Shown: positions 26,101-60,355 of the stretch, one piece after another
Numbering within the stretch: the stretch's first letter is position 1
How the letters are laid out: every line of letters begins with the position of its first letter
Assembly: GCA_037576195.1 (NCBI GenBank)
Contig: CM075102.1
Location: 9,858,001-9,922,000, forward strand
Direction of reading: 5' to 3'
DNA: 64,000 bases
Origin: Phytoseiulus persimilis
Lineage: Eukaryota > Arthropoda > Arachnida > Mesostigmata > Phytoseiidae
Position numbers and translations under genes: made by a program
The notes under the pieces: generated by a model
Seen by the model: only the letters and a program-made list of their open reading frames with translations
What the model was told of the DNA's origin: nothing
The model's database searches: none

Positions 26101-29100
26101 GGCGCCCCCCTCGCGTCTCATCCACCTCCTCATCAAGAAGGGGATCCTCGGGGACCTAGCTCGCGTCTCGCACTCCCTCGACCTTTCGTCGCCGCATCTG
26201 GCCGCCACGATAAATTCCGCCCTGCGGCCACTCGAACTCCTCACCAATCCTGTCAGTCTCCAGAACTCGAATCCCTTCAAGAAAACTTCGAAGAACCGCT
26301 CTTTCGCCGACGTTGTCGCTGGTCGAAGGGACGACGACGAGGGCGCCGACGACGATCAGGAACTCGACGCCCTTCGACGGAGCGATGACGTCGCTTCGGC
26401 GGTCGTCAACGGGGCCGGTTCGGTGATTCCGAGCATCGACAACATCATGGAGATGATTTTCGACAACGACATCAACGGAACCATCAACGCTGTTGTGAAT
26501 CGTTCGATAGAGATGGATTCCGAGCGGGAGCTCCGGGTTCAGGGACCCGTCGAGGAGGAGGAGGACGACATGGACCTCGAAGAGGACGAAATCGAGGAGG
26601 AAGAACCCCCGCCGAGAGGTCATCGTCCGACCCGAACCATCCGTGTTGAAGAAGACGACGTCGAAGGAGTGGACGACGATTCTCAGATGATGCACGACGA
26701 CGATCACGGTGTGGAACCTGCGCTCCAACCCGAGGAGGACGAAGAGGTTCGTTTGAGATTATCACTCCCCAGCTACCTAGGGATGAATCCTGGGTTAAAT
26801 CGGCTTCTAACATCCTGTCCCGATCGGGTGTTCTCCTCTCAGGTGGTCGTGGAACCCGTGGAACCCGACGATGATGAAGACGACGAGGACAGCGACAGTG
26901 AGGTGACGGCGGACCGTGAAGACGCCGTCGAGGACGCCGCCGCTGGATCGGCGGGAGAGAGATCAGGCGCCCCCGTGGTCTCCGGCGCTGGACAAGCCGC
27001 AGCCGGTGTTGCCGAGGAAGACGAAGAGGCAAGTTCCGTTCTCTAGCACTCTGAGTGATCATCGCCACCAGTCACCGAATAACGAATTTTCCCGATTTCG
27101 CGTGAGCAGGAGGACGACTTCGACGAAGAGGATGACGAGGACGACGACGATGACGACGAAGAGAATCCCTTCGGCGGAAGCAACAACGAGGTCCTGCACA
27201 GCACTCTGTTGGCTCGAATGGATCGCAGCGTCGGCATGGGACGTTCGGCCGTCAATCCTTTCACGGAGAGCCTCCTTCTTCAGGTGCTGCCATCCTTCCA
27301 GAGTTCCGGGCTCGAGTTGCCCGGCGTTTCCAGGAACATATCCTACTTGCGACGCCACTTTGAGTCTCGCCGTCGGAAAGCTAACGAACGGCCTCCCTTC
27401 CCCAGGTGAACTTGGAGGACATGTTCCCCAACCACATCTTCTCCGACACCGACGGCGTCAGCCGATACTTGCCGAACATAATGGACTGTTGCGATCCCCC
27501 CGACGGCCTGTCGGTGATTCCCCCGGCCCCGGGAGCCGTTGCGTCCAGTCACCCACTTCTAAGCCGTAACAATGAAGCCGCCGGCTCCTCATCCGGAACC
27601 CAGGGACAGGGCGCATCGCGCAGCAGTAGAGGGTACGGTCGCACACCTGCCCCCCCCCCCCCACCCTCTGCATCGGCCGCCGCAGTCCGCTCGAGAGACT
27701 CATGTCTATTTCATTTTTGCAGACGCGCGTTGGGAGTACAGAGCCGGATGGGTGCCACGAGTGGCTCTCGTACGACGATGAGTGCGGCTTGGCAACTTCT
27801 GAGCGGGAGGGCGAATCCGCCCGCCATTCTGCAGAGACTTTTCGGGCCCGCTCAAGATCACCACATGCCGATCCAGATCTCCACCAACGGGAACCAGTAC
27901 GGCCACGGAGCGGGTGCCAGCTCGGGTTCTCATCATGTGACCACGACGCCTCGCGTGCTGTTCGCCAACACAATGCTCGACACGCCCGAGGACTGGTTCG
28001 TCGATCTTTACGATGAAAACGTGCCTGGCTGCGCGAGTCAGCGGAACGCGGCCGGGGGCTCAGGCACGGTGCCCACCGCTCATTCTCGGTGGATCGAGGA
28101 GAGCAGGGTGTTGGACGGGGACTCGCTCCACGACTGTGTCGCGTTGCTCAAACCCGAGATCATTCCTCACTTGGAGAGGCTGCGCGACGAGGAATTGGCG
28201 CAGCGCAAGGAGAAGCGAAAAGACAAGACGAAAGCCGCCGGCCAGGAGAGAAAGGACTCAGACGCCGCGGATGACAACAAGAAGCCTCGCGACGGCGACG
28301 AGGACAGAGAGGAAGAGCATCGATTGCTGCAGCAGCAACCCCTCTCGGCCACCGCGTCGTCCGCAGCGGATTCCGTGAGTGCGATTCAGTGCTCGTCCTC
28401 GAGCGACAACCGGCAGGGCAGCAGCGCAAACAGCAGCAGACACGCCGAAGACCTTCAGGAGATGGACATGACCATCGTCATCGAACCCACCCAAGTTCAC
28501 GAGGAGTTCGCGCAGAACATCGTCGAGGGCTTGTTGCGACCAGCCGTGATCGCGGGTGACTCTGTCTCGGGAGACGCCGCGGGAGATCCGGACTCCGGGA
28601 GGCGCGACCAGCCGTCGCCGAGACCAGTTGCAGCAGCTTCAGGTGAGCCCCGGGCGCAATGTTCGGCGGACGAGAATTCCGAAGCGATCGTTTGCCGAGA
28701 TGTGAAGCTGATGATTTTGTCTTCCAGGTGGGCCAACAGGCTGCGTCCCGTTGGACTGGATGCAGGACGACCACGCCGCACAGGGCGAGCCGACGCCCAT
28801 GGACACGGCTTCGCCCCCGTCCCGTCGCAGTGCGGAAAGAACAGAAGCCCAGCCCCAACATCCGAATCTGTCCAGGTGAGTGTCACGGACCTCGTGATCT
28901 TCCCCATCGCCGGTTGGGTCGAGCGAGCGAGCACTAAACCCGGATTTTTGCAGTTCCGACGATTCGAGTCCTCTGATGGAATCTCACGGCAGCGCGAATC
29001 TCAACGTGCAGAGCGATGTGCCGATGATCTCGCCCGAATCGGCGACCAATCAAGAAGACCTCACGTCGCACCTTGAGCTTGCCGGCACCAGCGCCGCCGA

Positions 29101-32100
29101 TCTGCAAACCGGCGGACCGACAGCCGCCGCCGCCGCCGCCGCCGCTCAGGAAGACCAGGGCGCGGGTCAAGACGTCGGAGCCTCAGGATCGAACGAGTAC
29201 TCGGCCATCCTCGGAGACATCGAAGTTCCCGAAGGCGTGGACCCTTCTTTCCTAGCCGCGCTGCCAGAGTCGATGAGGCAGGAGGTCATCCAGGATCACC
29301 TCAGGATGCAGAGACTCCGCCAACAGAACCAAACGTCGTCCTCCACGACGGCAGCGCCTGGAGGAACGACACAAGGTGCACAATCCAGCTCAAGCGACGT
29401 CCCGCCTTCGTCGTCGTCGTCGTTCACCGAAGTGAACCCGGAGTTCCTGGCCGCGTTGCCCCCGAACATTCAGGAGGAGGTCCTCGCTCAGCAGCGAGCC
29501 GAACAGCAGCGACTCGCGTCGCAGAACCAAGCTCCCGACGAACCCGCTGATGCCAGCGCGTTCTTCTTGACGTTGCCGGCCGCCCTCCGGCAGACCATCC
29601 TGCAGGATTTGGATGATTCGCTCCTGCCCATCCTACCACCCGACCTCGCACAAGAAGCGCAGACACTACGGGCTCAGGCGCTTCAACAACGGGAAATCCT
29701 CCAAGATCGACTGTTCTCAACCCACGGAGGAACTTCTACCCTGTCGCGCATCCTGCGCACGGCAGTCAATCGCATGGGAAGTGCCGGCGTGACTCGCTAC
29801 ACGATTCACAACCTGCCGTTGCGGCCTTCGGGTCGCGGCGGCTCGAGCGCCTGGGGGTGGAACGCTTTCGGAGGTTCGCACATGGTGCGGCACCGGAACG
29901 TCAGCCGTCAGCTCATAGACTTCGAAGCGTTGTCCTGCCTCCTTGTTCTGCTGTTCGTCGACGAGCCCCGTCTCAACACCAACCGGCTCCACAAGGTTCT
30001 GCGGAACCTGGCCTACAACGAGCCCACCCGACTGTGGCTCGTGCGGGCGCTGTTGTCCATGATCGAAAAGGCCACCCCCGCCTCGGCGGATGACTGCAGC
30101 GATCAGCTGACCTACTTCAACAAGAAAACTGCGGCCAGTTGGCTGTCCGTCAGTCTGGACGCCGCCCTCGGCTGCAAGACAAACATATTCCACATCTACA
30201 ACGGGCAAGTTCTCATCCATCCGCAGGCGGCCAACATGGTGTGTCGACACGCCCTCGACACCCTCATCTCGCTGGGGAAAGCATTTCCGAAGCATTTCAT
30301 GCCGTCGCCGCGGCACCAACAGCCGCCCTCGACGCCGTCGCAGCAAGATCCCCAAGGCAAAAACGGAAAGCAGACGGACTTCTGGTCGTTGATCGTCAAA
30401 CTCGAGCAGCAGTGCCACGGCAAGTCGAAGGGCAAGCACTTGTCCACTCCGATCAAACTGCCAACGGGAGCCGGTGGCTCATCGTCCAAGAAGGACGACG
30501 ACGAAGAAGGCCAAGAGGGCCAGGGAACCAGCCGGGATCCGCGAGACTCCGCCAACAGTGTGATGAAGATCGTCATCGAATCGATGACGGGCTCCCAGTT
30601 CAAAGCGAGCCCGTTGTTCCAGCTGATTCTGCTCCTGGCGCATCCGGTGATACAGAACAGCCAACTTCTGACCGATCGACTCCTGCGACTCCTGGCGCTC
30701 GTCGTCATAGCCGTCGAGGACCGACCCAGCTCAATCGGTCCCGCGGTGCAGAGGTCATCCCAACAGATTTCAGCCGCCGCCGCCGGCGCTGCAACTGCCG
30801 CCGGAACCGCCTCGACCGAGATGAGCTCGAGCAGCACCGGGGCCGATAAGAGTGAGCCGCAGGGGTCGTCCAGCTCCGGCGCATTCGACCCCTCGATCGC
30901 CGACCCGGCTGAAAGCGGAGGCCCCGACCCGATGGCCACTTCCGACGCCGACGATGAGGAAACGGAGCGAATCCTCGAGTCGCATCTCAAGCTCGCTGTC
31001 AATACGCTAACGTCGAAGTCGTGCTCCGAAGCCGGTCTGGAGGATGCGACCGCGCTCCTACTTAAACTGTCCAAAGGGTCGTCGCTCGTGAGGAAAGTCG
31101 TCCTCAAGCTGCTGCTCGACGGCGCCCGTCAATTGGGACACACGGTCTGCGAACACATCCGTCAACTCGAGGACGAACTACGCGGCCTGACCGAGAGCGC
31201 CGACTCCGAAAAGCCGGGACCCAGTGGCGGCTCCGCGATGAAGGGAATCATTCAAGATCGGTTCACTTCCGGTTCGGTTGTCATCACGGCTCCGAAGAGT
31301 CGTGTGAGCTCTCAGGCTGGAGGCAAAATGGCGGCCGGGGCTTCGAGCCGAGAGCTGCAGCTCGCGTCGATGGCTGCACTCACGTCTAAAACATCCAGTC
31401 AGGCTTTCCTCCTGCGAGTTCTCAAGGTCATCATCCAGCTGCGCGGCTGTGCGCAAACCAGCGCTGCGAGCAACAGCAGCAGCGGGGCAAACAGCAACGC
31501 CAACGGTCTCCCCATCAATAGCGATAAACCAAAACCGCCGAGCCAGCAGCAGTCACAGCAGCCGCATTTGGCCACGTCGCTGAGTCACGAGTTGGCTCTC
31601 GATGCGCTCTGGAACAAACTGTCGGACTGTTTGACAGAACTCGCCGATGCCCCGGACCAGCACGCGGTGCTCGTCCTTCAGCCGGCCGTAGAAGCCTTCT
31701 TCCTCGTGCACGCTGCATCATTCCGGAACAGTTCCACCGCTGCCGGTGCCGCCGGAGCGAGCTCCAGCGGGGCAGACGGAGCCGGGGCGGCTGTTGTCCC
31801 CGCCGTGGTGGCCAACCCGGCTGCCGCTGGCGGGAGTGCCGACCGGGGTCTGCACGCCTCAGATCGGTTGCCTCAGGCTGCCGAACAAAACCAACCAACA
31901 GCTGAACCTATGATGATGGAGCCCAGCGAACTGGTACTCGAAATGCCGCCCGTATCGCCGCCCGATGTCGTCGTGCGGAGAACCGGACACGATGACGATG
32001 ACGCTGCAGCAGCAGGAGGCTCGAGTGACGACAGTAGCAATGCCGACATGACAAAGTTCCTCAATTTCGCCGAAACGCACCGAATGGTTTTGAATCAGAT

Positions 32101-34219
32101 TTTGAGGCAGTCTACCGTTCATCTGCCCGACGGGCCGTTTGCTGTTTTGGTCGATCATACTCGAATTTTGGACTTTGACGTTAAACGAAAATACTTCCGT
32201 ACCGAGTTGGAGAAAACGGATGTCAGCGGACGCAGAGAGGACGTTGCTATACATGTCAAACGTGAACTCGTTTTCGAAGACTCTTATAGAGAACTGCACA
32301 GGCGCCCCCCAGAGGATTGGAAAAACAGGTTGTACATCGTCTTCGAAGGCGAAGAGGGCCAGGTGAGTCCGGATGTGGCGCCGCGTGCTTCTCTTATCAA
32401 ACTTCCATCCGATCTGCAACTGAATTCTAACTCTCTCTCTCTCTCTCTCCTCAAACCAGGATGCTGGTGGACTACTCCGTGAGTGGTACACAATCGTTTC
32501 CCGCGAAATCTTCAACCCCATGTACGCTCTCTTCACGACCTCACCTGGGGACAGGGTCACGTACATGATCAACCCCAGCTCACACTGCAATTCCAACCAC
32601 CTGTCGTATTTCAAATTTGTGGGCCGGGTAATCGCGAAGGCCATCTATGACAACAAGTTGCTCGAGTGCTACTTCACAAGATCATTCTACAAACATATTC
32701 TGGGACGGCCCGTCAAGTATATCGACATGGAGTCGGAAGATTACGATTTCTACAAAGGGCTCGTTTTCCTTCTCGAACACAAAGTTGAGGAGCTCGGCTA
32801 CGATCTCACTTTCTCTCTGGAGGTAAGCTGATTCTGTTCTGTAGTGATTCCTCCTCCTCCTCCTCGCTCTGAATTCGGAATTCCTGGCCTCGGCCAGGAG
32901 CGTGTTTGTTCCTCACACCTGATTCGAAATTGCGCGCAGGTCCAAGAGTTTGGAGCGAATTCCATCAAGGACCTAAAGCCCAATGGTCGTCATATCGTCG
33001 TAACGGAAGAAACAAAACACGAATATGTTCGACTCGTCTGTCAGGAGAAGATGACTGGAGCAATCAGGTGAGTTGGCTTCGGTGGGGAGCGTTCCCTTCT
33101 TACCACATTTCGGTGGCCAAAGATCAGTCGGCTCTATTCACGCTGTTTCCCTGATGGAATGGCGCCCTCTGAACTCATGGCGACAAGAAGAGACTAGAAT
33201 CATTGCCTCGCTGCCGGGACTACGTATGAGGGTCCCGGATCGTTCGCTGAGACATTTCCCGAACATCCTGAAGCGAGAATCGGGGAATCCTCCAATTTTA
33301 AATTTTAATTTTAATTTCTCAGTGAGACATAACATTTGGCCACCTTGTTAGATAATAATGATTGCTAACAATATATCCCACACGTGCACCGTGCGCACCG
33401 AGAGCGAAGCACGCAGTTGTTGCCTACATTCACGTATTGAACGAATTTCAGACCCCAGCTGAACGCATTTTTGGAAGGCTTCTACGAGATCATTCCGAAA
33501 CAGCTGATCTCGATTTTCAATGAGCAAGAGCTTGAGTTGCTCATATCCGGGCTTCCCAATATCGACATCGACGATCTGAAACAGAATACCGAATACCACA
33601 AATATCAGAATAATTCGCTGCAAATACAGGTGTGCAGTTGGGCTGAACGATGTATTTGTCGTTGATGGAAGAGACTTCGCTTCTAACTAACGTCCTCCTC
33701 TCGAATGAATTCCAGTGGTTCTGGCGGGCGTTGAGAAGCTTGGAACAAGCGGACAGAGCCAAATTCCTGCAGTTTGTCACAGGAACCTCTAAGGTTTGTT
33801 CTTTCGGCGTTCGCATTCTATCGAAAACCCTTCAGGTCGCCCTGAGGCCCGCGTCGTGCCCGAACTATTTCCCAAATCAGGAGTTTTTCCTTCCTTTCCA
33901 GGTTCCCCTGCAAGGTTTCAGCTCCCTCGAGGGTATGAACGGGGTTCAAAAGTTCCAGATTCATCGGGACGACCGGTCTACGGACAGATTACCGTCGGCG
34001 CACACCTGGTAATATTTCTGTATATTCGCATGATTTCCGTTCCTCGGTTCTATTCGGTTGGACCAGTAGGCATCACAGGCCGACAGACCTTGTTACAATG
34101 TGATGCTTCTCTTCAGTTTCAATCAACTGGATCTTCCGGCCTACGAAACCTACGACAAACTGAAGGCTATGCTGCTGAAAGCCATCAGGGAGTGTTCGGA
34201 AGGATTCGGATTCGCGTAA
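17122..34219 (+). CDS. HUWE1: E3 ubiquitin-protein ligase HUWE1 (HECT, UBA and WWE domains)
   Basis: HUWE1 is a giant HECT ligase that ubiquitinates many nuclear and cytosolic substrates. 28 exons close in phase: 17122-17166, 18063-18161, 18280-18433, 18522-18684, 18796-18963, 19091-19692, 19878-20106, 20184-20391, 20520-23370, 23483-23900, 23996-24365, 24487-24630, 24717-24854, 24952-25119, 25213-25863, 25955-26746, 26843-27028, 27110-27283, 27406-27632, 27723-28642, 28728-28875, 28954-32362, 32460-32822, 32940-33067, 33452-33629, 33716-33793, 33902-34008, 34117-34219. The product is about 4406 aa (human 4374). The start [10 protein letters not shown] matches the family start. Visible domains: armadillo-like N terminus ([11 protein letters not shown] onward), UBA near residue 1427, WWE near 1720-1795, long acidic tracts near 2200-2560, ubiquitin-binding LP motifs ([18 protein letters not shown]) near 3046-3130, and HECT from about 4070. 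The catalytic Cys is in PSAHTCFNQLDLP, residue 4373, 33 from the end as in human. Intron 17 is GC-AG. Confidence 0.97.
23377..23391 (+). repeat. C15 homopolymer in HUWE1 intron 9
   Basis: Fifteen consecutive C residues start six bases after the donor of HUWE1 intron 9 (23371-23482). A second run of 13 C lies at 27650-27662 in intron 19. Such runs are length-unstable and often misread. Confidence 0.9.
27029..27109 (+). other. GC-AG intron in HUWE1
   Basis: Exon 17 ends ...GAAGAG followed by GCAAGT, and the frame hits a stop 18 bases further on, so splicing is required. Cutting at GC and joining to the acceptor at 27109 keeps phase zero and continues the acidic run. The donor fits the strong consensus known for GC-AG introns (AG before GCAAGT). 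Confidence 0.75.
32431..32449 (+). repeat. (CT)n tract at the HUWE1 HECT intron acceptor
   Basis: Nine CT units just upstream of the acceptor at 32458-32459 act as the polypyrimidine tract of intron 22, directly before the HECT-coding exon 23. Confidence 0.85.
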
Positions 34220-35785: not shown

Positions 35786-38700
35786 TCACGCAGCGGCTGC
35801 GGCACCAGGGTTCTCTCTCCAAAATGCGAGATTCGGTCCCTGTATGCTTTGGCATGAGACGCGAGGATTCCTGTGGAAGAACCGCGGGTGTTTCTCGTGA
35901 GAAATGTTCCTTCGGATACGACGACTCATCATTGTCCGGGAGCGGCGGAATGTTATACTCACAGGAATGGATCATACACGTCGAGCACGTTCTTGGTCAC
36001 GAACTTGGTGGTATCCATGTTCTCGCAGAGAATTTTTGCCAAAGTAGCCTTTCGTAATTCAGCCAGCTGACCTTCGGTGAACTTCACGGAGTGCTCGTCG
36101 TTCTCATGCCAGTACCTGTGGAAATCATCATGGAACGAGAACGTTTAGAGAAACGAGAGATGCGAGTGATTTCCGATAGCAGTGGAGGAGCGAAGTGAAC
36201 TTTGCCGACCTGTCGCATCGTCGTAACCGCTGGAATTGGAAGCCGATGATACAAGCGAACGTTGGTCCCACCACGCCTCCAGGCAGAGGGATCTCCGAGA
36301 GCCCACCGGAGAAGAGGTCTATGTCGTCGACGTGCCTGTGATGAGATATGTTCATGAGTTGAGCTTGCGGTCGAATCCCGCCGACATGTTCTCATGCTGG
36401 ATTGAATTGGCGTGTGATCCGCCCCCATTTGGCTCAACAATGACAGCCCCAACTAACCTGTAGACATTGGACAAGCCTCGAATGGCGTTCGGATTGACCT
36501 CTCCCTGCAAATCTTGGAACGATCTCAAACGTGGTTTGCCGCAGAATTCACGATAATCGTTGTAGCCGCGGATGCCGTGATCACGGCCCCTTTGTAAATT
36601 GATAGCTATGAGATCGAGACCCGAGAAAGGAATGGTCTTCGATTCGAAGAGATGCTCTGTGACCATGTTCGTCACATGATTGTCGAAGTTCTCCATGGGA
36701 GTCGCCATGAGACCCCTAACGATCTGATCCAGTTGATCACCTGAAAGGTTCCGTGAGCTCTCAACTAGAGGTTCGTCGGTGGGTGCTCTCATCGGTTTCA
36801 TCATCGGATCAGCAATACATCTGAGTCTGATTGTTCCGCTTTTGAGCGAGAACGGTTAGTTATACACGACGTGGATTCGTCGACTCACGCTTATAGAGAA
36901 TTTGCGAGTTGAAGAAGGCGTCCGTCAGTTTGATTCTTCCGATTTCGTTGTAGGCTGGCCCGAGCAACTTGAACGCGGGGGGCAGCAGCGTGTGGCCGAA
37001 GCGGAAGGCGGCCGTGGCGAACTCGTTGAACACACCGACGTCGCACGTTGGGTCGTAGCCCGCGTAATATCCCGAGTCCAGAAGGTTCAGGCCCCATTGA
37101 CTGATGGCCTCCCAGCCGAGCACCCGCGGCAACCATTCGTTGTAAATGACACGTTGATACATGGCTGTCAGGATTCGCCGCGCTTCTTGGAATGCGCGTT
37201 CATCGTCCCAATGAGGGTTAAGGCGCGACAGCTCCAGCGAAATACGGTTGTGCTCCCTCGCGAAAACCGTGTGCATCGACGTGAGGGCCGGCTGCTCAGA
37301 AACCCTCGTGTCCCCGGCGATGAAGCATCGGTCGTTCGACGAGAGGCAATCGGCAGCTCCTTGAATCTCCGGCAGGAGAGGTTTCAGCGACGGGTCGGCC
37401 GGATGAGCGGACATGTTGAGCTGACCGTCCCTGAGCAGGCGGAGCTCTTCGCGGGCGCAGTTGTCGGACCCGTACACGGTTGAGAGATCGAGGAAACCTA
37501 GAGGTGGCAGATGAATTGAGTACAAAGCGCGGTTTGCATTTCGTCGCGAAATTCGTCCAAATTCCAACTCACCTGTCACTTGATTTATTTGTTCGCGGGA
37601 GCCCAGCGTTCGTTGGCCGCTCATCGAGCGCGTGAAGGGCAAGCACAACGGCCGACCACTTTTGGCAGACACCGACGGGAAGAACGGATCTCCATGAGGT
37701 ATGGTTATCGGGAAACACTCCTGATGGTTCTCCTTCAGTGGCGAATCACACTTCCGGCACTTCAGAGTCGACTCGTTCGGACCTTCGCTCAGCGGGGTGT
37801 GGGCCACGTCGTGGTCCATGAACTGGCCCATCTGCATCAGCATCTGGGTGTATTTCTGGTGGGGAACGGACAGGTCGCTGTGTACCGCGGCGGACACAAC
37901 TCGGCTGGGCGGCAACGGCGTGCCCAGCACGGATGTCTGTCTCGCGGCGCTGATGTTGTCGTCGTACCTCGACGGCACTATCCTACGGAACGAGTGGGAC
38001 ACCTTGCCGAAGTTGGGGCTCTTCAAGTTGTTGCAACGACCCGACATCGTGCGGAAGGGCGTTCGCGGGTTGCACGGCTGGAGGCGCGTCGGCTCGCACG
38101 CCGCGGGCTCCTCGAACTCTCGGTGGAACTTGCTCAGGTCCACGTGCCGGAGGGCGGGGATGAAGTTGTCGTCGATCGTGCGCCGCTTGTCGCGGCCCAG
38201 CTCGTTCATGAGCTTTTTCGTGGCGAGCTCCAGCACCTCGCTCTGATTGTGCACGTTCCGCGAGATCCCGTTCGCCCGCATGAAACCCTTGCTGCGGAAG
38301 TTCGGACCCAGGTCGCTGTCGCCGTGGACGCTGTCCCGCAGCGCGTTGCTCGCATCGTTCAGAGCGTCGACCAGTTGTCCGTTGGCCAGGTTCTTCAAGG
38401 GGCTCTCTTCAGCCCAGGGCTCCAGGTTGACCGAGCTCAGAAGACGATCGTTGCACGATTGGAGGTTGTTCAACCAGGGGTCCGGTAGCTGCATGACTCG
38501 CGGCTGGATGACGCCGCCATGGAAGACGTTGTCGCAAATGATCCTCGCGAGCGAGGTTTTCCGAATTTCCTGGAGCTGATCCTTGCTCAGAGAGCTCGGC
38601 TGTCCCGGGTTCTCGTACCAGAATCGGTCGGAAATACGTAAATGCCGGAACTGATGGGCGTAGACGCAAGCCAGCGTCGGGCCGACCAGACCGCCCTCGA

Positions 38701-41700
38701 CGGGCGTTTCGGCCAGGGCGGCCACTATCAGGTCGATATCGTTCACGTTCTCGTAGAGCTCGGCGAGCTTCGAGGCGATCTCCTTGTCCATGACCTGGGC
38801 GAGATTCTCGAACGACTCGATGTTCCTCAGGCCGCAGAACTGCCTCCACTTCGTGTATCCGGCCAGACCGTGATCCCGACTCTGCTGTATCGAAATCGCA
38901 GCCAGGTCGAGCCCCGGCTGACCGGGCTCCGAGGCGAACATGTCGTGGGTGACGTGAGCGCTGAAGAATGCGTCCATTCTCTGAGCGCGCTGCATCAGTG
39001 CGCCCGCCACGTACTGCTTGAACCTGTTGGAATTGTACAGGTCTTGGGGACGGAAAGCCGTTTCTGTCGAGGCGATGGAGCCGAGTTTGCGGAATCGGAC
39101 AGCGTCGAAAAGCTCGTTGTTGCTCGGCATGGCTGATAGCAGAGCCCAGAGGCCGATGGTTCCCATCACGTTGGTGACTCCCGGCAGCCGCTTGTGGTCG
39201 TAGCCCGAGAAGAATCCGTTGCTGTCCATGCGGAGCCCGAATCTCTCAACGACTTCGGGACCGACGAGCGTCGGCAACAGCTCGTTGTAAGCAACGTGCT
39301 GAATTTCGGCACCGACGACTTTTCTGGCTTCTTGATACAGCTGCTCGTCGTCCCACGCCGGGTTGAGCAGTTTCAGCTCCCTGGCAATGCGATTGTGCTC
39401 CCTGATCCAAACGGATGTCATCCACGCCAATCCGATGTTCTGATTCATTCGGGGATCTCCCGAACTGAAGCACGGAGCTGTTTTCGATCCACGACAATCC
39501 AGAGAAGAAGCGTCCCCCACCGGGATCTCCTCGCCTGCGTCGTTACGTTGCGTCAGGAGCAGACCATTTTCGAATGAGCGGAGAAAGCGAGCTTCTGCTT
39601 CTGACGATCCGTAGATCGTTGAGCCGTCGATAAAAGACGTAACTTGATTGTTCTGTTCGCGGGGTCCCAGACCACAGGTCTCGCGGGGCGCCGTTGAAGA
39701 TCTGACGTAATCGAGACACGTCTGGCCGAAAGAGCCGTAGAAGGGGTCGTCAGCTCCGACAGGGATCTCCATGCATTCGGGGTGCTTCAGGTTTTCAGGA
39801 ACTCCGCAGCACTTGAGTCTCGCTCCTTGGAAGCCTGTGGAAGGTAAAGTTTTGTGCTCGAGAACGGCGTGGTCAGAGGCGGTCATTGATTGACCTCGCC
39901 GACGGCTGAGGTTCGGATTTCTCGCGACCGATGAAAAACGTCGTATCGTCTTCAGATTTTTGATAAGGAAAAAACTGAATGTTGTGTATTTGAATCCGAG
40001 TGATTGTGAATGAATATTTCTCAAGCAGCCATAGAATGAATCACTCCGTTCGCGAACAGCGGCAGTGGACAAAAACCATCTTCGTCTCTTGCGAAAACCA
40101 GCGGTTCGAGAAGCCTGAAGAGCGGCGGCATGAGCTTACCGGCGGTTTGCGGCGTGTGGGCAACGTCGTGGAATACGAAATGGCCGAACGCGACAGCTAC
40201 CATGGACGCGTGTTCGTGAGGGATGTCTCTGTCCAGGAACACCGTAGAAGAGATCTTCCGCGCCGACGGAAGCGGCGAATTGGACTGTGCGGTACGCGGG
40301 ACGGATACTCCTGCCAGAAGAATAAGTTTTGTACCAAAATTCGCAATCGGAAGGGACCTTCTGTTCGATTGTCTCTCTTCGACACCGGCGCTTCCTCATG
40401 CGGAACGGGACTGGCCAGAGAAAATCAAGTTAGCGATAAGACAACTTCTCAGCCGAGAAGAGAATCATCCTCACCATCGGCGTAGACTGGGGGCAGGAAA
40501 CGGAGGAACCTAAGGTTCGCGGAGCCCCAATAAGGATTCTCGAGGTTGTTGCAGAAACCGTCATACGAGCGATATCTCTCGGGCGCGCACGGTCGGACGC
40601 CGATTTTGTATGGGCAGTTCGATTCCAGGAAAGTCCGCTTGATATCCACCTGCAAGGGAACAGCTGTACTTCCGGTCTGAGGTCTCCCACGCCGCGTTCG
40701 TGATCCGCTAGTAGTTCGTGGATTTACCTTTGTGAGGCCGAATGTTACGTCCCTCGGCGAGAGGTTGAGATTCTGAGCGACATCTTGAGTGGCGAACTCG
40801 GCGATGGATCCGAGCGCCGAGAGGTTCTTCGATGCCACCTTTGTTTTCTCTATGGCACCCAAGAACCAGAAAGGTTCCCGAGGAGTACTGGCCACGCCCG
40901 CGGCGAAAATTCCGGGCTCGGTCGTGTTGAACAGCAGCTGTTGTCTGTGGGTGGAAGGGCGATTGAGTTGAGAGTTATCCGAGCCGACGGGAATTCATTC
41001 CGGCTCCCGACGCGAACCGACTGTCGCATTCTGGAGCGAGGGAGGGAGCGAAACCACTCGTGCTGGGAGTCGAAGTCCGGGAAGCGTGCACCGCAGTGTG
41101 ATAACGCAAAACCAGACAGGATACGCAAGAGGAAGCGCGTCGGTCTGTTTGCGCAGTACGACCCCGCGCGGAGCTGTGGGCGTTGAGCGATGACGTACAA
41201 CGAATCGAATACCGGTTGCCGTTCAAGCGCTTTCCGTTATCCGACTACTGAGCGAGAGGAAATGCGAAATTCACAGAAGGGATGACGGTCGCTCGCTCGT
41301 TTGGCCTTTCGAATAGCCCGCGGCAAATGCTCATTGAGCGCCGAGAGGCGATGTCGTATCCCACCGCAGCAGTGTTACCAAAACTTATCCCATTCGAGGA
41401 CGCAGAAATGAAGCGCTGAGGTCTCTCTCGTCGCATCGAGTTACGATATCGCGTTCTCGATCGACGGCCGTCCCTCCCGAGATCCATCCCATCCCCGGGG
41501 TGTCGTTCCTGCTCTCGCTCACATTCGTTCCCGAGAAGTTTCGTCCCCGGGAACGTCATCGTGTACGGCTCGCGATACACGGACGCGAAACTTGACGCCG
41601 TCGCATCTCACGATTCAACGATGAGAAATTTTCGCACGCCAGCCGAATTTCTACGAAGGGGGAGCCAAGCTTAGTTCTGTTTTCAGCGATTGGGACCGGC

Positions 41701-44700
41701 ACCGGACCCAACAGAATCGAAAGTTTATTGACCGGAGGATGACTGGTCAGATCAGGGGCTTCGTTCTGTGGAAGAGCGCCGAGCGAGAAGGCAATGCGTG
41801 ATGGAGCGCTTACAAATTCGTGATACATAGCCCAAACAGAGCACCTGAATTCGAGCTGATCACCGTTGTTCGTTCTGGGAGCGGACGTTTCTGCGCCGAA
41901 GCGTTTGTCTCGATGCACAGCCTGTCTGCCGCCTTCCTTATAGTTCAGTGACTTCTGGAAATCTGGTCGCCGCGTGCCGACGGTGTTTGCCTCCGTCCAA
42001 GATTCGAGCCCTCCCCGAGACAGAGCCGCGTCTGCGAACGGTTCCCGCGAGCTCTCCGGACGCCACCGGCTTCGCAGCTCAAGAAGCCGAATACGCTCAC
42101 TCAGGACGTGCCTGAGGCCCGATGTACCAGGGGCACCCTCCTTCCCGAGCTCGATTTTTCACGAATGAGCGGAGGAACCGAACGTACATCCTTCGTTTCC
42201 TCTCGTTCCGCTCCTTCAACTCCGAAAATGTGCTCTTTAATGTCGCTCGAGCGGCTGGTTGACCGAGCGTTAGGGGAATGGAACAACAACCTTCACAACT
42301 GCGATGGTCGTGAGGGTTAGCGCACACCCGTCGCGTAATCAGCAAATCGTCGTCAATCATGAAAGCTGCCCGTACAGAGTGCCACGGGCATACTTGTCGA
42401 AGTAGGAAACTCGCGGCGTACGTCTTTTTTCATGTAGGCTCGGTTCGATTCCGCGGGGAACGGGTGAAAACGGTGAAAAATGAGCAAGTCGGCGGAATAG
42501 TTCTTCTCGGCACAGAAAACGAGGATATCCTTCTTGACAGTTCCGGTGACGCGTGAGGGCTACCCTGCAGAGGACTTTCGGAGCTCGCAATTATTTCCTG
42601 CCGATCCGCCGCTATCCCCGAGATGCGTACAGAGCTGCCAGTGGTTATTCCAACCAGCTCAAACTCCGCCAGAGTGACACCAGAGGCGGTCCGGTGATTC
42701 TGTGGTTTGGGAGTTTCTCTGGCGCCCGTGAACCCTGCCGATGAGCATGGCACGCTCGACGGCGCACGTACTCTGAACCCGAACATCGTCTGAATGTACT
42801 GTCGGCTGGTGCACGCGGGGCATTTCCAGAGACATTGACGACGCGTGAAACGAAGTCAGCCGTGTGCTACGCTTCAGTCTTGTTATTCGGTAGCCGTTAG
42901 TTCGAACGACCTTGCACCTACGACCTCGGAAAGCCGACAGGTCAACTTTGTACCGCTGTGGGGTTGGTATCGCCTCCGGCATAATGTAGTGGGCACGCCT
43001 TCGCCGCTTCAACTGCTTTACAATGCGACATTCAGGCAAATACGATTTCCGATATTCGCTCCGCGAGACGCCGCCAGTGCTGCGGAGCCGAAACGCATCA
43101 GGAGATCGAGAAGCCGATCGGCGCTGGAGTCGCTCCAGCCTAGGCGTCGGGTCGGAACTCTTGGCTCCTTGGGACGGGAGCTCGTGAACCTCGGACACTC
43201 GCTTGCCCGTGAGGAGAGCTGCGGACCGCTAACGAATGTCCGTTGCCCCAGTCGCACGCCACGCCAACGTCAATGAATACCGAAAGATGACCGGGCAGCC
43301 AACCGGACGGCCCAATGACTGTCAACAACCGCCGTCATCAAATCCTGAGAAAAGAGACAGCTCCAAACAAAGCTCCTGCGGAACAATGACTTTTTGAGAC
43401 TTCTCGCCTCTGAATAGACACTCCTTTGGGGAAAATGCGGAGCTTTGACAAAGTTCAGCGTGTCTCAGCTCAGTCATTGACACGAACCCCATGCGAAACT
43501 TGGACAATTTCCCCATTTCGTTATGATTCAGCCGGGAAGCGGGGCGCACTGAGGCCTCAGCTTCTGTTCTCATACCACCGAATCGGCCGGAGTGAAGCTC
43601 TCCACACTCGGCTTACTCGGGTCCGGGTTTCCAGGAATACTGAACGAAAGGATCACGAGGGCCGCCATCCCTCTTTCGGCCCTCCATGAGCTGCTGCCGA
43701 TTCCAAATGATTTATTCATGTATTAGAGCTCAAAGTTCGGGGTCGGATAAGCGACAACTATGGAAGAGGAGCAGAAGAAAGGTATTATACCCAAGGCAAG
43801 CCAATGTCAAGCAGCTGTCAACTTGGAAATACGTCGGCCTCGACTAGGATTCGAATTGGATTTACGAGCAGGCATCCATTCTTTTGAGCGGGTCGGAGAA
43901 TTTTTCTGTCGTGAACTGTAGCGCATTCGCGAAGCGGCATCATTCCGAACCTTCCGGGGGCCATGGGCTCGTGAACCTCTCCGTTTTATGGAATGTTTAC
44001 TGGAGTCAATTACGACAGCTTTCGTCATTCGGGGTGGAATCGCTTCGTTTCTGGAGCTTGTCTGCTCGATTTATCAAAACGCCCATATTCGCGTCGGGCT
44101 CAGCATTTTCCCCCATCCGAGCGGACCATAGGTGTTCTAGTAAAAATTCTAGCTGGACAATTATTGCGCAACTGGGTTGACCGAGACAATACATCGCCCG
44201 GAACCCACCTTGGAGTGGTGTTCCGGATCGATTCCCTCAATCAGATCCGCAGTCCCTCACACACCCGAATCAGGCACTCGCTGCACACAATATGCGAATG
44301 ATTCATTGCTCAAATACCGCAATCGTCGACCGCAGATGTCGGCGCGCGTCTTCTTCGCGCATTATCGCCCCCTTCGTAGACGGATGACGAATCGATTTGT
44401 GGGCCATAGCGTTCTTTTCGCTTACGGCCTGAACCAGGAAACCGGAGAAGACGACAACGACGGGGAAAGCGAACGAAAAATCCTTCGCCCGATTACTTTC
44501 TCCGATGTCAAGTGAGCCGACAACGCTGACAACAAAACCGTTACGACACACGCAAAAGAATAATAATCCAGAATGAGGAGGGGGCTCGGTGAGGAAGAAT
44601 TCTTTTGACACACAGACTCAGCGCAGGATGGAGCTCCGCCTGAATCGATAATGACTGACCGCGGGCGTTGTCAACCGTCGAGCGCTTCCCGCCAGGAGTC

Positions 44701-47700
44701 CAAACTCTCAGGTGGGCTCTCGCGGAATCTCCGAACGCGCATTCGGGCTTTTCGATACCGGACGCTATTTTGAACTCTCCGGCCGGGAAGCATTCCGTCC
44801 GCGGCAAGCATTAGGTGGCCGTCGATCGAAGCGGTTACAGTCCAGTTCGATGCTCCCCTCGATGAATGCATGTTCGCGCGGCTGCCCGGCTCGGTAAAAA
44901 TGCTCGTTGAGAAAATTTCGTATTGACGAAGAGTCCACCGGTCATCGTCTAGACTGCGACGGAACGATGACCCGGAGTGGCGGTGTCGACGAGTGTACAG
45001 AGTTTGGAAACTTTTCGGACAGACGCAGGCGAAAGATCGCGATTTCGTTTCGTAGCGACGAGTCGCCATCTCTGGCCCCCACCGAACTCTTGCATGAATC
45101 GGAGGTAGTTGTTACGCGGAGAACAGGAAATGCCAATCGAACGGAAACGAGAAGCATCGTGTTGAACTAGCTCGAGAATGCCCTTCGGCTCATTGTGCAT
45201 TTGCAGCTTCTGGAGGCTTCTTCTGTTCGCCCATCGGTATAATAATGGAGCCGCGATGCTTTAGTGATTCAACATGCTTCGTTTGACTGGCACAACAATT
45301 AGCAAAGGTCATATCATCCCTTCTGGAGCCCTGTCAGTTAGTCAGCTAGCCAGCCCGCCCGCCCGCCGAAGGCTAGACGCGAAAGTCGAACTTGGCGGAT
45401 TCTAGAAGTTCTTCGAGCGAGATACTGATTGAGCCCACGAAACCCTGCTCCTCTCGATAAGGACGATCGTGCTCGTGCATCGGACTGCAGCGGTCTTTGA
45501 CGAGTGTAGTGTCTGTCCCATGGTGGGACCAGGCTGTTGGGACACTGTTCATGGCCAGCACGCGACAGCATCGGTGTTGATGCTCTTTTCCGGCGCCTTC
45601 CACTTGACTTTGGTCGAATCACGGTTCCATGATCTCAGCCAGCTGCCTGCAGCGAGCGACGAAAACGAATCTGAAGCTTTTTCGGAGTTGATACAAACCA
45701 TGTTCTCGCGCAAGCTTGTGTCTTCACACGTCGGCAATCGTCGCGAACTATAGCCTTCGGACGACGACGGTTTGAGAACAAAGGAAACGAGGCCTCTTCA
45801 AGATAAAAATAATCATTTGTTCCCCTTAATTGCGACAGCGTAACGCATATTACATCACAAGCGTACGGAGCCGCGTCTAAGGGCTATTCTCAGGCGCCGG
45901 CACCGTACATCATCCCGGCTCTCCGACCACGTCCAGTTGTCTCATCCAATCGGCATCACGGTACTCTTTGCCCTCCCGTGTTATCCCGGCTCGGCTAGCC
46001 GGCCGCGGGCCGGAGAAATCATCCATCCATCCATCCATTTTCCTCCGGCCACATTCACACGAGATATCGAGCGCAGATAGAATGTCAGCTTATCTCCATG
46101 TGTCGAGATGTTCGAAAATTGAATGACTTTGCGCACACAGATTCACAGAAAATCGGCGACGGTGGTTTTTGCCAAAAATAACAAAAAAAAACGGCGGCGT
46201 CAGATGCCTTCGCTGATGACCCAACGTTCTTGACTGAAACTTGGCGGACCGCGAACCTAGTTGACGCGAAACTCTCGTGAAGTAGTGAATATCCACGTAC
46301 ATCAGGAGTAAATAAACGACCGCGTCATGAAACGATACGAGATATTCTGATGCTTGCTCATTGAGCGTCGGGATGAGCTCAGCGAAGCCAACTCCCGAGT
46401 AGCGCCGCGCCTCAAACTGCCTCCGCACATATTCGTTTTTCGTTCTGGATGAGCTTCAGAGGATGTCGACTTCGTTCCTCCTGTCATCCTGCCATGCGGA
46501 ATGAAGGTGACCCGGGCTGTTGGTCGGGTCTGAAACATGACATGATTGGAATCGTCGGGATCGATCTACAACATCCTTCGGCTCTTGGAACTGGTGGCCC
46601 GGCGATGGGAAGTTCGGTTGCGGGTGACCCTGAAATACCCATGCCGACTTTTTCATCGTTTTGTGAGCGAGTGTCTCATGCCTCAGTTTCCTCGAGACTC
46701 GATTCCGATCCCTTTTCTTACGCAATTCCCATCTAGCGGAAGGGTAGTCCCGAGCCGATTTTGTATTCCGCACTCATTCATCGGCTGACGCAGATCCCGT
46801 GGAAATTTTGCACGTTTTAACGCCGGACACTTTTTTTGTCTCGTGTATGTCAGTGGAACAAGTTCCCTTTCAGACCGTTTTTGAAGCGTTCGAAAAGTCA
46901 AGTGGAACACGGAAACGTCAGTGAACGTTGGATGAAGTTTCGTGATTCGGCGGGTGAACGGGGTTGACGGAAGTTCACTCAATTTCGAGAATTTATCGGT
47001 TTTCCTCTGAAGCTTCGAAAAGAGGTTAGCCCACAGCTTGGAACGATGCTAGCGCAGTCGATCGTGGGAAATTCCCAGATGGACGCACATCGCACACGCC
47101 CGCTGCGTCCCCGGGATATTTCCGGAAAATGACTGACTCGTTCGAGAACAGCAGAGTTCGGTCTTCTGGATCTCCCTTTCTTTCCAGGCCGCTCCCGATG
47201 AAAGAGGCTCGTTAGCAGCAAATCCTCTTCACCTTGGTTCTTTGAGTTCGCCTGAACCTCGGAGGCACTTTGGCGGGCAACGCCGCCCTGGCTCGGCCGA
47301 GTCTTCCTAAGTCGGGTGGACAGGAGCGGGAAATCATGCACCGAAGACTTGAAGAGGATCGGCCGACCGCGAAGCACCTGACTGACGGAGGGGAGAGCAA
47401 GAAGGCCACGTGCTGGGTCCGTTGGCGGCTTGCACGCCAATCTGGCCACAATACCAATCCTTGCCCCAGTGGAGCACGCGCTGGAATCTCCCTCAATGCC
47501 CTCGCTGAACGGTCCGGCATGAGGATTGTACGTGCTTCCTCCGGGTCGCAATGCGATGCGTTCCCAAAATCGATTCCACACAGCCCCTCCGATCGTGTGA
47601 ATGAACTGCACCGACGAGCACAGCGTATCCGAAATCGCAAACGAGCAGCCGGATCGGAAGTCTTCAATCAAATTCATGAGGCTGCCAGGTGTTTTCCCGA

Positions 47701-49417
47701 TCGTTGGAATGTCTCTTCTCGGTGGATTGTTGCGATAATCAACGAATCCATGTGGGTCCATCGGGCGTGGCCACCCGCTCCTCTGCTTGCTCACCAGTTG
47801 CTTTTTTGTCTCTCCGTCTGTTTCCAGCCGGCTGGTTAGCCTGTAGAGGCGGGATTCGACGAACAGAAATCCTCTCGCGCGGTGAATGTCCACGAGCAGC
47901 TCGTGTCGATGCACTTACAGCTGGCTGATCGTGAGCAGTCAGTCCATCAGACTCAGGTCACCCCTGTGCCTGAGTTCCCCGCCCGTCTGGCTGCTGTTCG
48001 ACTCATACGCATTGTCAAGTCCAGAAGTTGCATCGAACCGAACAACAGCGGGCGATGGCTCGGTGGGAGATCTTCGGAAGCGTCTTACAAGTTGCCGTAA
48101 GGGCATGGGCCTTCAATCCGAACCCACACAGAGAGCGGCGAGACGCAGGCGTCTCACTGCGATGAGAACGCCCTCCGTCACGATGGCACGTGAACTTCCG
48201 CCACAAGCCGGTATTCTGGAGCTGTTTCTCCCGAATTGCATTGACGGAGCTCGATGCTTCCGGTCATGAGCGATTTTGGATTCCGTCGAGGTTTACATTC
48301 CTCGACGAGCAAGGACTCCTACCGATAAAGTAGTGGACATCACACAGCGTGTCGCGACAGCAGGTGCCGTCGCTACACTCGGGTGGAGCGCGCAGAATTC
48401 AAACAGTACTCTAACGAACTCTGGACGGAGCGGCGACTGATTCCGGGTTCCGTCCCAATCGATTCTCGGCTTTATTCTCGCGATTTTCGCGCTACGTGTA
48501 TTCTTTGCGTTCTGTTCGGAATGGCCCTGACATCTGGCAGCGATGTCCAGCAGAACGATTTAAAGAACTGCTCGTTCGTGTTTATTCTATGTTTTCACTC
48601 CGCGCATCGATTTTTGCAACGTCAGGTTCACTCTCATCCACTAAGGAGGACTAAGATTCCATGCGCTGGACCAACGTCTGAGTTTTTTCAAACGAACCAT
48701 TCCGCTGGAAGGTCCCAGAAGGCCTGATTCTCTGGCGATGCAAAATCCTCCTGGATTTCATCTCATTGCCACAGAAGAGCAGATGCTGAGCACGTCTCCG
48801 CCGACGACATCGAGGATCGGGCACAACTTCGCAACGGTCGAGGCAGACTCGGAGAGCGAGCCGCGATCATCGATGGCGGCACCCGCTCCAAGGAAAAGTA
48901 TTCAAGTTTGAAGGACGAGAACTCCCGAAATACTGACGTTGCGAAGCGCATCTGCTACACTGAACTTTTTCAAAAACTCTTGATCGCACTCATCGGCCAC
49001 GAAACGGTACGCCGCGTTGCCTGCCTTCAACACGAACACGACCTCCGAGAGGACACCGAGAAAATTGAAAACGTCGATCAGAAGAAGGAAGGGACTTGAG
49101 CTCGAAGGCTCCGAAGCCTCCTTGCTCTTCATCGAGAATACATTCGTCGGACCTCTCTATTGCAACTGTCTCACACGATTTCTCGGAACGCATTGCATGG
49201 GAGACGAGTTAAAAATTCATAGTTGAGATCGCCTCTTTTGAATCGTGCGGCCGGTTGCTGAAATCGAGATAGTTTTCCGAAAACGGTGGTGCTCCACTCA
49301 CCTGTGAAACGCTCTGTTGAGGGCCCATTGGAGGAGCTGGGGGTTGACCTGGGCTCTCTGTGCCGCAGACGGTCCCATCAGACAAAGTATCAGAGAGAAC
49401 AGTAACAAGTCATCCAT
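35786..49417 (-). CDS. Secreted tandem-domain animal haem peroxidase (chorion peroxidase / peroxinectin-like)
   Basis: Ten exons close in phase: 49302-49417, 40728-40944, 40475-40649, 40140-40310, 37573-39834, 36889-37497, 36458-36740, 36210-36335, 35963-36115 and 35786-35870 (TGA), about 1398 aa. Animal haem peroxidases oxidise substrates with hydrogen peroxide outside the cell, for example in cuticle or eggshell cross-linking and defence. Exon 1 encodes a signal peptide ([19 protein letters not shown]). Domain 1 spans about residues 120-640, domain 2 about 750-1395. Domain 2 has the distal GQFMDHD (His about residue 900), GDTRVSEQ (about 1045) and proximal RFGHTL (about 1149), so it should be active. 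Domain 1 reads [15 protein letters not shown] and lacks a proximal His (IGLWALL near 455). Four short introns are typical, but intron 1 is 8.4 kb; the remote first exon was chosen because its phase and coding content fit. Confidence 0.93.
45373..45540 (-). CDS. Possible terminal exon inside the peroxidase intron
   Basis: A - frame ends at TAG 45375-45373 after a very protein-like amphipathic tail ([18 protein letters not shown], then FDFRV). The 5' limit is uncertain, with acceptor-like CAG sites near 45490-45530. I do not recognise the protein. If real, it would end a gene nested in the peroxidase intron on the same strand. Confidence 0.25.
   Translation of the reverse strand, partial: PTAWSHHGTDTTLVKDRCSPMHEHDRPYREEQGFVGSISISLEELLESAKFDFRV
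46301..46444 (-). CDS. Possible exon resembling a receptor ligand-binding (ANF-receptor) segment
   Basis: A 144-bp - frame lies between an acceptor-like ATCCAG at about 46447-46445 and a donor GTACGT at 46300-46295. It encodes a basic start followed by [15 protein letters not shown] and [17 protein letters not shown]. The FHDAV plus hydrophobic helix pattern resembles the extracellular ligand-binding fold of receptor guanylate cyclases and relatives, but this rests on a short motif. Partner exons were not found. Confidence 0.2.
46979..47914 (-). other. 311-codon open reading frame in the peroxidase intron
   Basis: This is an unusually long - open frame for non-coding DNA, starting MHRHELL and ending at 46979. 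Composition is Arg- and Ser-rich and irregular, with no recognisable domain, signal peptide or membrane span. Long frames are open on the other strand and in another - frame over the same stretch (47270-47839 on +, 47212-47667 on -), which suggests locally low stop density rather than a gene. Confidence 0.2.
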
Positions 49418-58869: not shown

Positions 58870-60355
58870 TCAGTGACAGTCCGTCGCTGCCTCCTCAACA
58901 TTTTTGATCCCGCTTAGATCAAAGTCTGTTGGCCTAGATTGTTGAGGCCCAACTTCGTTTATGGCCCAAGGCTGGAGGACTGCACTACCGAACACCAAGA
59001 AAATTAATCCAGTTATGATGCCGACAGTCCCTGCCACATAAAAGCTATACGACCATGTCGTGGTAGAGTTAACTTCATCCGTTAGAAGACCTGTCACATA
59101 AGGAACAATTATTCCGCTGAAGCTGCCAAAGGTGACTGTCATCCCAAAAATCGTTCCCGCGAATCTGGGCGCCATATCTATTGCAATCGGTCCTGTGGAA
59201 GATTCCGCAAGTCCTCGAATCGCGCCCGCGACCAGGAAGAGTAACAAGCTCAGTTTTCCATCACAGTTCGCTAGAGCGACGACAGACATTAGAACGATCG
59301 AGGATCCAAACATCGCGATCGAGTTAAAAAGTTTACGAACAGTCGTCACGTTGAGAACATTGTGCTCGACTAGGTAGTCTGACAGCAGCCCGGCAATCGT
59401 AGACGTAACAATGGCGCCGAAATACGGCAACGCGGAATATAATCCATTGCTGCCTATATCAAACTGTAGAACAGTACCGAGATAAGTCGGTAACTCTGTG
59501 ATCAGCGTATACTGAAGATAAAGGAAACCGAACGTCGTTGAAATGTAGGCCCACACCGGAGCTGATGAGAGTATTCTCTTCAGAGGTAGCGGCGGACGCT
59601 CAGTTCCGGTTCCATGATGACTCAAAACCGTTCTGGATTTTTTTGACTTCACGAGCCGAGATAAACGGGTGACCTTCAGGCTTATCAGTTGTCAGCAAAC
59701 TCCAGAAGAAGAACCAAACGATTGTAACAGTTCCGAAAACGTAAAAAACCGAGGGCCAGCCTCCGAGGAATTCTGACGCTGCAAGCTTTCCCGAAACCAG
59801 CATCCCTATCACTACTCCCAGGAAGCCTCCTTGATGTACGAAGGTGATTGCGGAGCACCTTTCGCTTTTGGGAATCCAAAACGCTAGCTGAGCTTCGAGC
59901 GCTGGATAAGTGACTCCTTCACAGAGTCCTTGCAATGCTCGGATCCCGATGAGACCCAGGTGTCCATACATGGTGGTTATGATCGGTATCAACATACCCA
60001 AGATACCCGTAAGTACGACGCCCATCCCAAAGAGCCATTTGCCGCCGAATTTTTCCGCCAAAAATCCACCGGGGATGGGTGTGATGATGTATCCCCAGAA
60101 AAAGGCCCCGAGGATCACACCTTGTATCTTCGGACTCCAGTTGAACGGTCCGTTTTTCAAGTTCGTTGAGTTACTCTGTGACATCCCTGGCCCTCGGAGA
60201 CCTGCGGGATTGCTACAATCGCTCTCCCTGTTTCTCGTTTGAGGTGCTGCGTGGTTTACCATTGACACTATGACCACGTTCATGTTGACACGCATGGCGT
60301 AAATGCACACCGCTCCCACGAAGGCCAGAAGAATCAGTACTCTCCTGTACTGCAT
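58870..60355 (-). CDS. SLC17-family MFS transporter (sialin / inorganic phosphate cotransporter-like) with a frameshift
   Basis: Two adjacent - frames together give one complete SLC17 protein of about 495 aa: 60355 to about 59602 (N-terminal half) and about 59652 to 58870 (C-terminal half). SLC17 members are 12-span major facilitator carriers for organic or inorganic anions. Visible marks are the first helix with RVNMNVVIVSMVN, a glycosylation-rich first loop (QSNSTNL), GVILGAFFWGYIITPIPGG, GGKWLFG, EGVTYPA in the first half, and P(V)WAYI, GLYSALPYFGA and the SGIIVPYVTG helix in the second. The halves lie in different frames; a one-base shift within 59600-59652 would join them, and a 7-T run (59638-59644) lies there. 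The gene has no introns in 1.5 kb, unlike its neighbours. It may be a sequencing error, a recent pseudogene or a retrocopy. Confidence 0.85.

Follow-up and report, generated by a model that had tools for sequence, protein, structure and literature searches.

A 64,000-nucleotide stretch of the genome of the mite Phytoseiulus persimilis (GCA_037576195.1, contig CM075102.1, positions 9,858,001 to 9,922,000 of the forward strand), referred to as the window, was analysed for a gene of the animal haem-peroxidase family (PF03098), and positions are given in the numbering of the window. The gene lies on the minus strand from about 35786 to at least 40944, and two PF03098 domains were found on it by profile search, the first of which (domain 1) has lost most of its haem-site residues and the second of which (domain 2) has kept them all. 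The gene model was obtained by spliced profile alignment, and codon positions were counted by eye. A 1091-codon open frame (36860-40135) spans most of both domains, and an exon of about 2.26 kb (37573-39834) carries the core of domain 1, the linker and the start of domain 2 without a stop codon or a modelled intron. Since this exon is open throughout, the two domains are parts of one polypeptide, and the tandem pair of PF03098 domains by which a double peroxidase is defined is present on a common exon in an open frame, as the initial annotation had proposed. The gene model is a computed one, and an artefact of annotation or assembly (two adjacent genes, or sequence errors in domain 1) would be an explanation of the pattern; it is extremely improbable, because the core of domain 1, the linker and the start of domain 2 share that single frame and the same pattern occurs at a second locus (L018, below). 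The version with two neighbouring genes was rejected on the shared exon.

All exons were placed on the minus strand and are described here in the direction of transcription. The most upstream coding exon recognized (40728-40944) carries a segment preceding domain 1 and ending in FGLTK, and was deduced from an open frame, the acceptor CCCACAG at its 5' border and the donor GTAAAT read by eye; the first exon of the gene, with the start codon, was not found. Domain 1 is completed by two exons upstream of the long one, which carry its PF03098 positions 1-90, namely the N-terminal exon (40475 to about 40649; aligned part 40475-40631, start at 40649 set by eye; profile match at C2:9898467-9898574, minus strand) and the exon with the degenerate distal motif GHFVFHD (40140-40310; PF03098 match, flanked by GT..AG introns). 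The core of domain 1 (38405-39834), which corresponds to the MPO heavy chain, matched PF03098 with 488.5 bits over profile positions 87-530 (curated cut-off, 25) and is thereby assigned to the peroxidase fold. It is followed in the same exon and frame by a 96-residue inter-domain linker (38117-38404), open all the way through, and by the first part of domain 2 with the intact distal motif GQFMDHD (37573-38116). Domain 2 is completed by five downstream exons: one with the intact motif GDTRVSEQ and the proximal motif FRFGHTL (36891-37497; PF03098 match and alignments), one with the intact Asn421 (36458-36757; preceding splice junction uncertain), two further ones (36210-36335 and 35963-36115) and the last one (35786-35870), which was read in the sequence as ending in PGAAAAA and then a stop codon. 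Seven introns were modelled inside the domains, and six of them have GT..AG borders; the remaining one, in domain 2, was modelled with a GC donor of uncertain position, a GT donor being found two bases further on. The span formerly assigned to the two domains (37573-40310) extends from the distal exon of domain 1 through the end of the long shared exon, and excludes the first domain 1 exon and three haem-site residues of domain 2 (Arg, Glu and the proximal His), which lie within 36891-37497. As for integrin motifs, the gene contains no RGD or KGD, and a single LDV towards the end of domain 2 was given no weight.

Residue numbers and residue roles are those of MPO. All ten haem-site residues tested (Q91, D94, H95, R239, E242, R333, G335, H336, N421 and R424) are kept in domain 2, so that the whole haem site of a catalytic animal haem peroxidase is present there; GQFMDHD (37825-37811 includes the codons of Gln, Asp and His), GDTRVSEQ (Arg, 37306-37304; Glu, 37297-37295) and FRFGHTL (His, 36994-36992) were read intact on the minus strand, as had been stated earlier. 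Only H95 and R239 are kept in domain 1, the other eight residues being changed (Q91H, D94F, E242Q, R333W, G335L, H336L, N421S and R424Q). Its distal motif GHFVFHD has His at Gln91 (40182-40180) and Phe at Asp94 (40173-40171) together with the retained His95 (40170-40168), and its motif GDPRMNQN has the retained Arg239 (39451-39449) and Gln at Glu242 (39442-39440), in agreement with the initial annotation. Added to these are the changes of Arg333 to Trp (39148-39146), Gly335 to Leu, Asn421 to Ser (38893-38891) and Arg424 to Gln, as well as an intact Ca2+ site. The proximal pair of a catalytic domain (His336 and Asn421) is replaced by Leu (39139-39137) and Ser, and its distal set (Gln91, His95 and Arg239) is incomplete by the replacement of Gln91.

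The absence of a proximal His from domain 1, another earlier claim, was found in the alignments with both domain 2 and lactoperoxidase. The proximal segments of domains 1 and 2 were aligned to each other without a gap. With lactoperoxidase, a one-residue gap was opened just after the site and the His is matched to the first residue of a Leu pair, and therefore Leu occupies the proximal site in either register. Between residues 323 and 403 of its model, domain 1 contains no His, and no alignment with a proximal His was found. The Ca2+ site of domain 1 (D96, T168, F170, D172 and S174) is kept, and so are all ten of the cysteines that are invariant among six intact-site domains of the same genome.

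The concentration of loss at the haem site was estimated against two references. The own-genome reference consisted of the six intact-site domains with 114 invariant columns (10 haem-site and 104 other), of which domain 1 has lost 8/10 and 17/104, respectively (Fisher one-sided p = 6.5e-5). The prokaryotic reference consisted of the 80 bacterial and archaeal relatives closest to domain 1 among 519 found, and the losses were 8/10 haem-site and 15/77 other columns at 95% conservation or above (p = 2.6e-4) and 8/10 and 26/109 at 90% or above (p = 6.5e-4); these relatives were gathered by a pair of motifs that includes one from the Ca loop, so that kept columns, the Ca ones especially, may be favoured, a bias of which the own-genome test is free. 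His336, Arg333, Gly335, Arg239 and Glu242 are present in 80/80 of the prokaryotic references and Asn421 in 78/80. Against the 77 other columns, the intact-site paralogues L015, L016, L011 and L017 have lost 20, 22, 14 and 18, respectively, and none of the ten haem-site columns, and the second domains of the window gene and of L018 have lost 11/77 each and none of the ten. Outside the haem site, domain 1 is thus no more eroded than the single-domain paralogues. R333, N421, R424 and G335 had been joined to the haem-site set after the domain alignment was inspected, and with only the six residues discussed in the initial annotation the loss is 4/6, with p = 0.012 (against 17/104, own-genome reference) and p = 0.023 (against 15/77, prokaryotic reference); with an eight-residue set it is 6/8, with p = 8.8e-4 and p = 0.0024, respectively.

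The fold of domain 1 was predicted by AlphaFold from 476 residues of one exon (the core) with 39 prokaryotic rows, the input ending short of the distal helix, which is carried by another exon. The mean predicted local distance difference test value (pLDDT) was 77.5 and the predicted template modelling score (pTM) was 0.79; pLDDT was below 50 at 77 model residues (among them 1-22, 38-56 and 452-476), and the Ca loop was predicted with moderate confidence only. The proximal segment is still helical in the model (residues 221-234). Among the matches listed by Foldseek were MPO, EPO, LPO, a cyanobacterial peroxidase, Dictyostelium peroxidase A and the DUOX1 domain, with template modelling scores by query length of 0.69 to 0.75 and root-mean-square deviations of 3.6 to 7.7.

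At least 75 PF03098 exon matches were found in the genome and grouped into 15 loci: the window gene, 11 single-domain models, the fragment L022 and two further tandem loci (L018 and L019), both of which were cut between the domains before spliced modelling. L018 (C2:51.63 Mb) has two peroxidase domains on one strand about 0.7 kb apart, both modelled open, and from the strand, the spacing and the likeness to the window gene these were taken as one gene. Its second domain keeps 10/10 haem-site residues. Its first domain keeps R239, E242 and R424 and has E91, A94, N95, Q333, V335, M336 and L421 instead of the others; the losses amount to 7/10 haem-site columns versus 14/104 others with the own-genome reference (p = 2.3e-4) and 7/10 versus 19/77 with the prokaryotic one (p = 0.0067). 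With the reduced sets they amount to 4/6 (p = 0.0064 and 0.047, respectively) and 6/8 (p = 0.00036 and 0.0071, respectively). On sequence, the pseudo-enzyme reading of domain 1 made in the initial annotation is therefore supported by the disproportionate loss at the haem site, the retention of fold markers, invariant cysteines and Ca2+ site, and the recurrence at a second locus.

Two alternatives that leave domain 1 a ligand were weighed on these residues. According to the first, domain 1 would have been repurposed, its emptied cavity taking up a lipid or another hydrophobic molecule which is handed to domain 2 or sensed. In the window gene, half of the eight haem-site replacements (Phe, Trp, Leu and Leu) are bulky hydrophobic residues, and a mosquito double peroxidase, a possible orthologue, is reported in the available text of PMC9754258 as necessary for lipoxin A4 synthesis; the replacements at L018 are different and partly polar (Glu, Asn and Gln), which argues against a single conserved ligand, and this alternative is considered unlikely. 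According to the second, domain 1 would bind haem in a non-canonical way, with the distal His95 as a ligand, and have a weak catalytic or haem-sequestering function. It draws on the retained His95 and Arg239 and on several single-domain paralogues which miss some haem-site residues and still have open frames; it is quite unlikely in view of the joint loss of His336, Arg333, Gly335, Asn421 and Gln91 and of the first domain of L018, which lacks His95 too.

Among the 11 single-domain models, Arg333 and His336 are kept in all according to the model alignment, in which L010, L013 and L014 have a one-residue gap beside the proximal His. Asp94 is absent in 6/11 of them and Glu242 in 7/11, and because of these shared losses the absence of the ester-link acids is poor evidence by itself; a claim of a dead domain resting on those acids was rejected, since the paralogues concerned keep His336. 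In L013, L014 and L010 (C1:39.47, C1:48.29 and C1:22.50 Mb, respectively; clade support 100/99) the peroxidase domain is essentially in one exon and the haem-site motifs are degenerate (Asp94 replaced by Ala or Val, Glu242 by Gln, and one residue absent next to the proximal His); these three genes are possibly old retrocopies whose open frame was kept. A DUOX-like domain, so named from its sequence (L021, C2:34.39 Mb), keeps His336, its distal Asp-His being replaced by Ser-Ser. Among the 80 prokaryotic loci, three (L084, L096 and L042) match the peroxidase profile twice within a single open frame, and two-domain bacterial peroxidases are described in the available text of PMC3396595. No relative was found by a scan of viral contigs.

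A tree was constructed from 15 domains, from which L019 (broken models) and L022 (a 74-residue fragment) were excluded. The first domains of the window gene and L018 pair with a support of 91/93 and the second domains with 96/99, and first and second domains are split in 100% of 200 bootstrap trees. Most simply, both the tandem structure and the dead state of domain 1 predate both genes, and the pocket drifted later. Between the two genes, the first domains have a protein identity of 42%, with proportions of nonsynonymous and synonymous differences (pN and pS) of 0.415 and 0.742 and a fourfold-site identity of 0.34 versus 0.27 at random, and the second domains have a protein identity of 50%, with pN 0.356 and pS 0.836, a distance at which exact values of the ratio of nonsynonymous to synonymous substitution rates (dN/dS) are not meaningful. 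As the synonymous sites are at or near saturation at 42% protein identity, purifying selection must have acted on domain 1, a little less strongly than on domain 2.

These data also bear on a further explanation, in which domain 1 would be a relic that is decaying, still tolerated, and due to be lost. L019 (C2:20689500-20697500), modelled only in broken pieces of 366 and 498 residues and excluded also from the dN/dS count and the column tests, resembles L018 (58% and 64% identity over the aligned parts), has a first-domain remnant without the distal His and without the proximal His, and looks like a decayed tandem relative of L018; its presence in the same genome, the longer first-domain branches and the greater number of non-haem columns lost in domain 1 than in second domains would suit a relic. 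Such a fate is very unlikely for domain 1 of the window gene, which has retained its invariant cysteines and Ca site and, to the same degree as single-domain paralogues with an intact site, its non-haem columns, which has an open frame with GT..AG introns, and on which purifying selection has acted over a near-saturating distance.

With the one-exon tandem architecture, the concentrated loss, the purifying selection and the recurrence at a second locus established, domain 1 is read here, with a probability of roughly two in three, as a haem-free, Ca2+-stabilised pseudo-peroxidase which would serve as a structural or binding partner in cis of the intact domain 2. Domain 2, with its complete haem site, would be the working haem peroxidase. 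Domain 1, with its fold markers, cysteines and structural Ca2+ site retained, has lost the proximal ligand, its Asn partner, the haem-edge Arg and the distal Gln; accordingly, neither haem binding nor a peroxidase cycle is expected of it. It would then most likely act in cis as a fixed structural or binding partner of domain 2, in the manner of the haem-free assembly domain of DUOX; the binding, scaffold or regulatory role put forward in the initial annotation is a possible one, for which the DUOX analogy and the selection evidence speak.

Several observations weigh against this reading. The retained His95 and Arg239 may permit some ligand binding by domain 1, and the proximal Met of the first domain of L018 might in principle serve as an iron ligand. 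On the six originally discussed residues alone, the concentration test has less force (p = 0.012 and 0.023). The non-haem losses of domain 1 (15/77) exceed those of the second domains (11/77 each) and the first-domain branches are longer (0.87 and 0.77 versus 0.58 and 0.63), from which the constraint on domain 1 appears somewhat weaker. The first-domain fork (91/93) is under the mark of the tree program for firm support. Finally, a signal-peptide scan of window positions 40500-48000 gave one weak candidate, which was not accepted.

Two other genes were recognized in the window. A HUWE1-like ubiquitin ligase gene (19074-34213, plus strand), tail to tail with the peroxidase gene, has DUF908, DUF913, UBA and UBM domains and HECT exons at about 32493-34213, and was named after HUWE1 for this domain order. 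A Major Facilitator Superfamily transporter (PF07690) is represented by two open frames at 58873-60433 on the minus strand.

CG10211 of Drosophila is counted as the fly member of the insect double peroxidases, and the available text on it gave no domain information. Among insects, the mosquito DBLOX AGAP008350 is called a double peroxidase in the available text of PMC13043729 and PMC9754258, and the aphid DBLPX has two peroxidase domains in one protein, described in the accessible part of PMC11673278 as consistent across other insects; the window gene is like them in this respect. According to the same part of PMC11673278, aphid DBLPX proteins have both a transmembrane and a VWC domain, and a haem-binding site is ascribed to the 31 proteins of that study collectively. 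By comparison, the frame of the window gene stops 7 residues past the modelled domain 2, no VWC was found in one downstream frame scanned, and no transmembrane domain was found in the window gene, whose N-terminal exon was not located. Among the open-licence papers listed by the literature searches, none showed a double peroxidase of an arachnid in which the first domain is dead, which is no proof of absence from print.

The closest described case is LsPxtl-1 of the salmon louse, for which the available text of PMC10579435 reports two peroxidase domains, the classical distal GQxxDHD and RxxE in the second only, the proximal GHSxI in the second, Ca-binding sites in both, and death after knock-down in nauplii. 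The window gene is like it in the degenerate distal motifs of the first domain, the intact ones of the second and the Ca residues of both; unlike the GGxxAHD and RxxH of the first domain of this crustacean protein, domain 1 has GHFVFHD and RxxQ. An obligate pair of a dead and a live domain may have arisen once before the split of arachnids, crustaceans and insects and been retained from then on, with the window gene, L018 and the salmon louse protein as its descendants, in which case the dead pocket would vary freely and domain 1 would be a dedicated regulatory or binding partner of the tethered peroxidase; this is proposed tentatively, with the odds somewhat against it. Double peroxidases matter in arthropods, as indicated by the death of the knocked-down salmon louse and, in the available text on the mosquito, by lipid mediator synthesis in immune priming.

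In the peroxidase-homology domain of DUOX1, the available text of PMC7794343 reports no haem density and the absence of the haem ligand His, and mutants of its cation sites, the second site among them, did not co-assemble with DUOXA1, which its authors attribute to folding; the second cation site appears equivalent to the Ca2+ site of domain 1, judging from the residue pattern. Domain 1 is like this domain as a peroxidase fold without the haem ligand, with a cation site kept and N-terminal to a catalytic module, and unlike it in being fused to a second peroxidase and not to an NADPH oxidase; no NADPH-oxidase module was found in the window gene, which has its stop codon 7 residues after domain 2 and PF03098 as the sole Pfam family in the three stretches scanned. 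The DUOX-like L021 keeps His336 and lacks the distal His95. MPO, LPO and EPO have the same fold over the core of domain 1, with 31 to 34% identity among the Foldseek matches listed, and differ from it in the proximal His and most haem-site residues, which domain 1 lacks. The tandem arrangement of a dead and an intact domain is already in print for the salmon louse, as far as the available text goes, and a haem-free domain of peroxidase fold is known in DUOX; added here are the loss counted as concentrated at the haem site, the evidence of selection, and the presence in a single genome of two loci whose dead pockets differ. A pseudo-enzyme fused to a live relative allows a direct test of what the dead copy does for the working one, and this genome offers two such natural fusions, in which separate sets of substitutions have inactivated the first domain and both first domains are under purifying selection.

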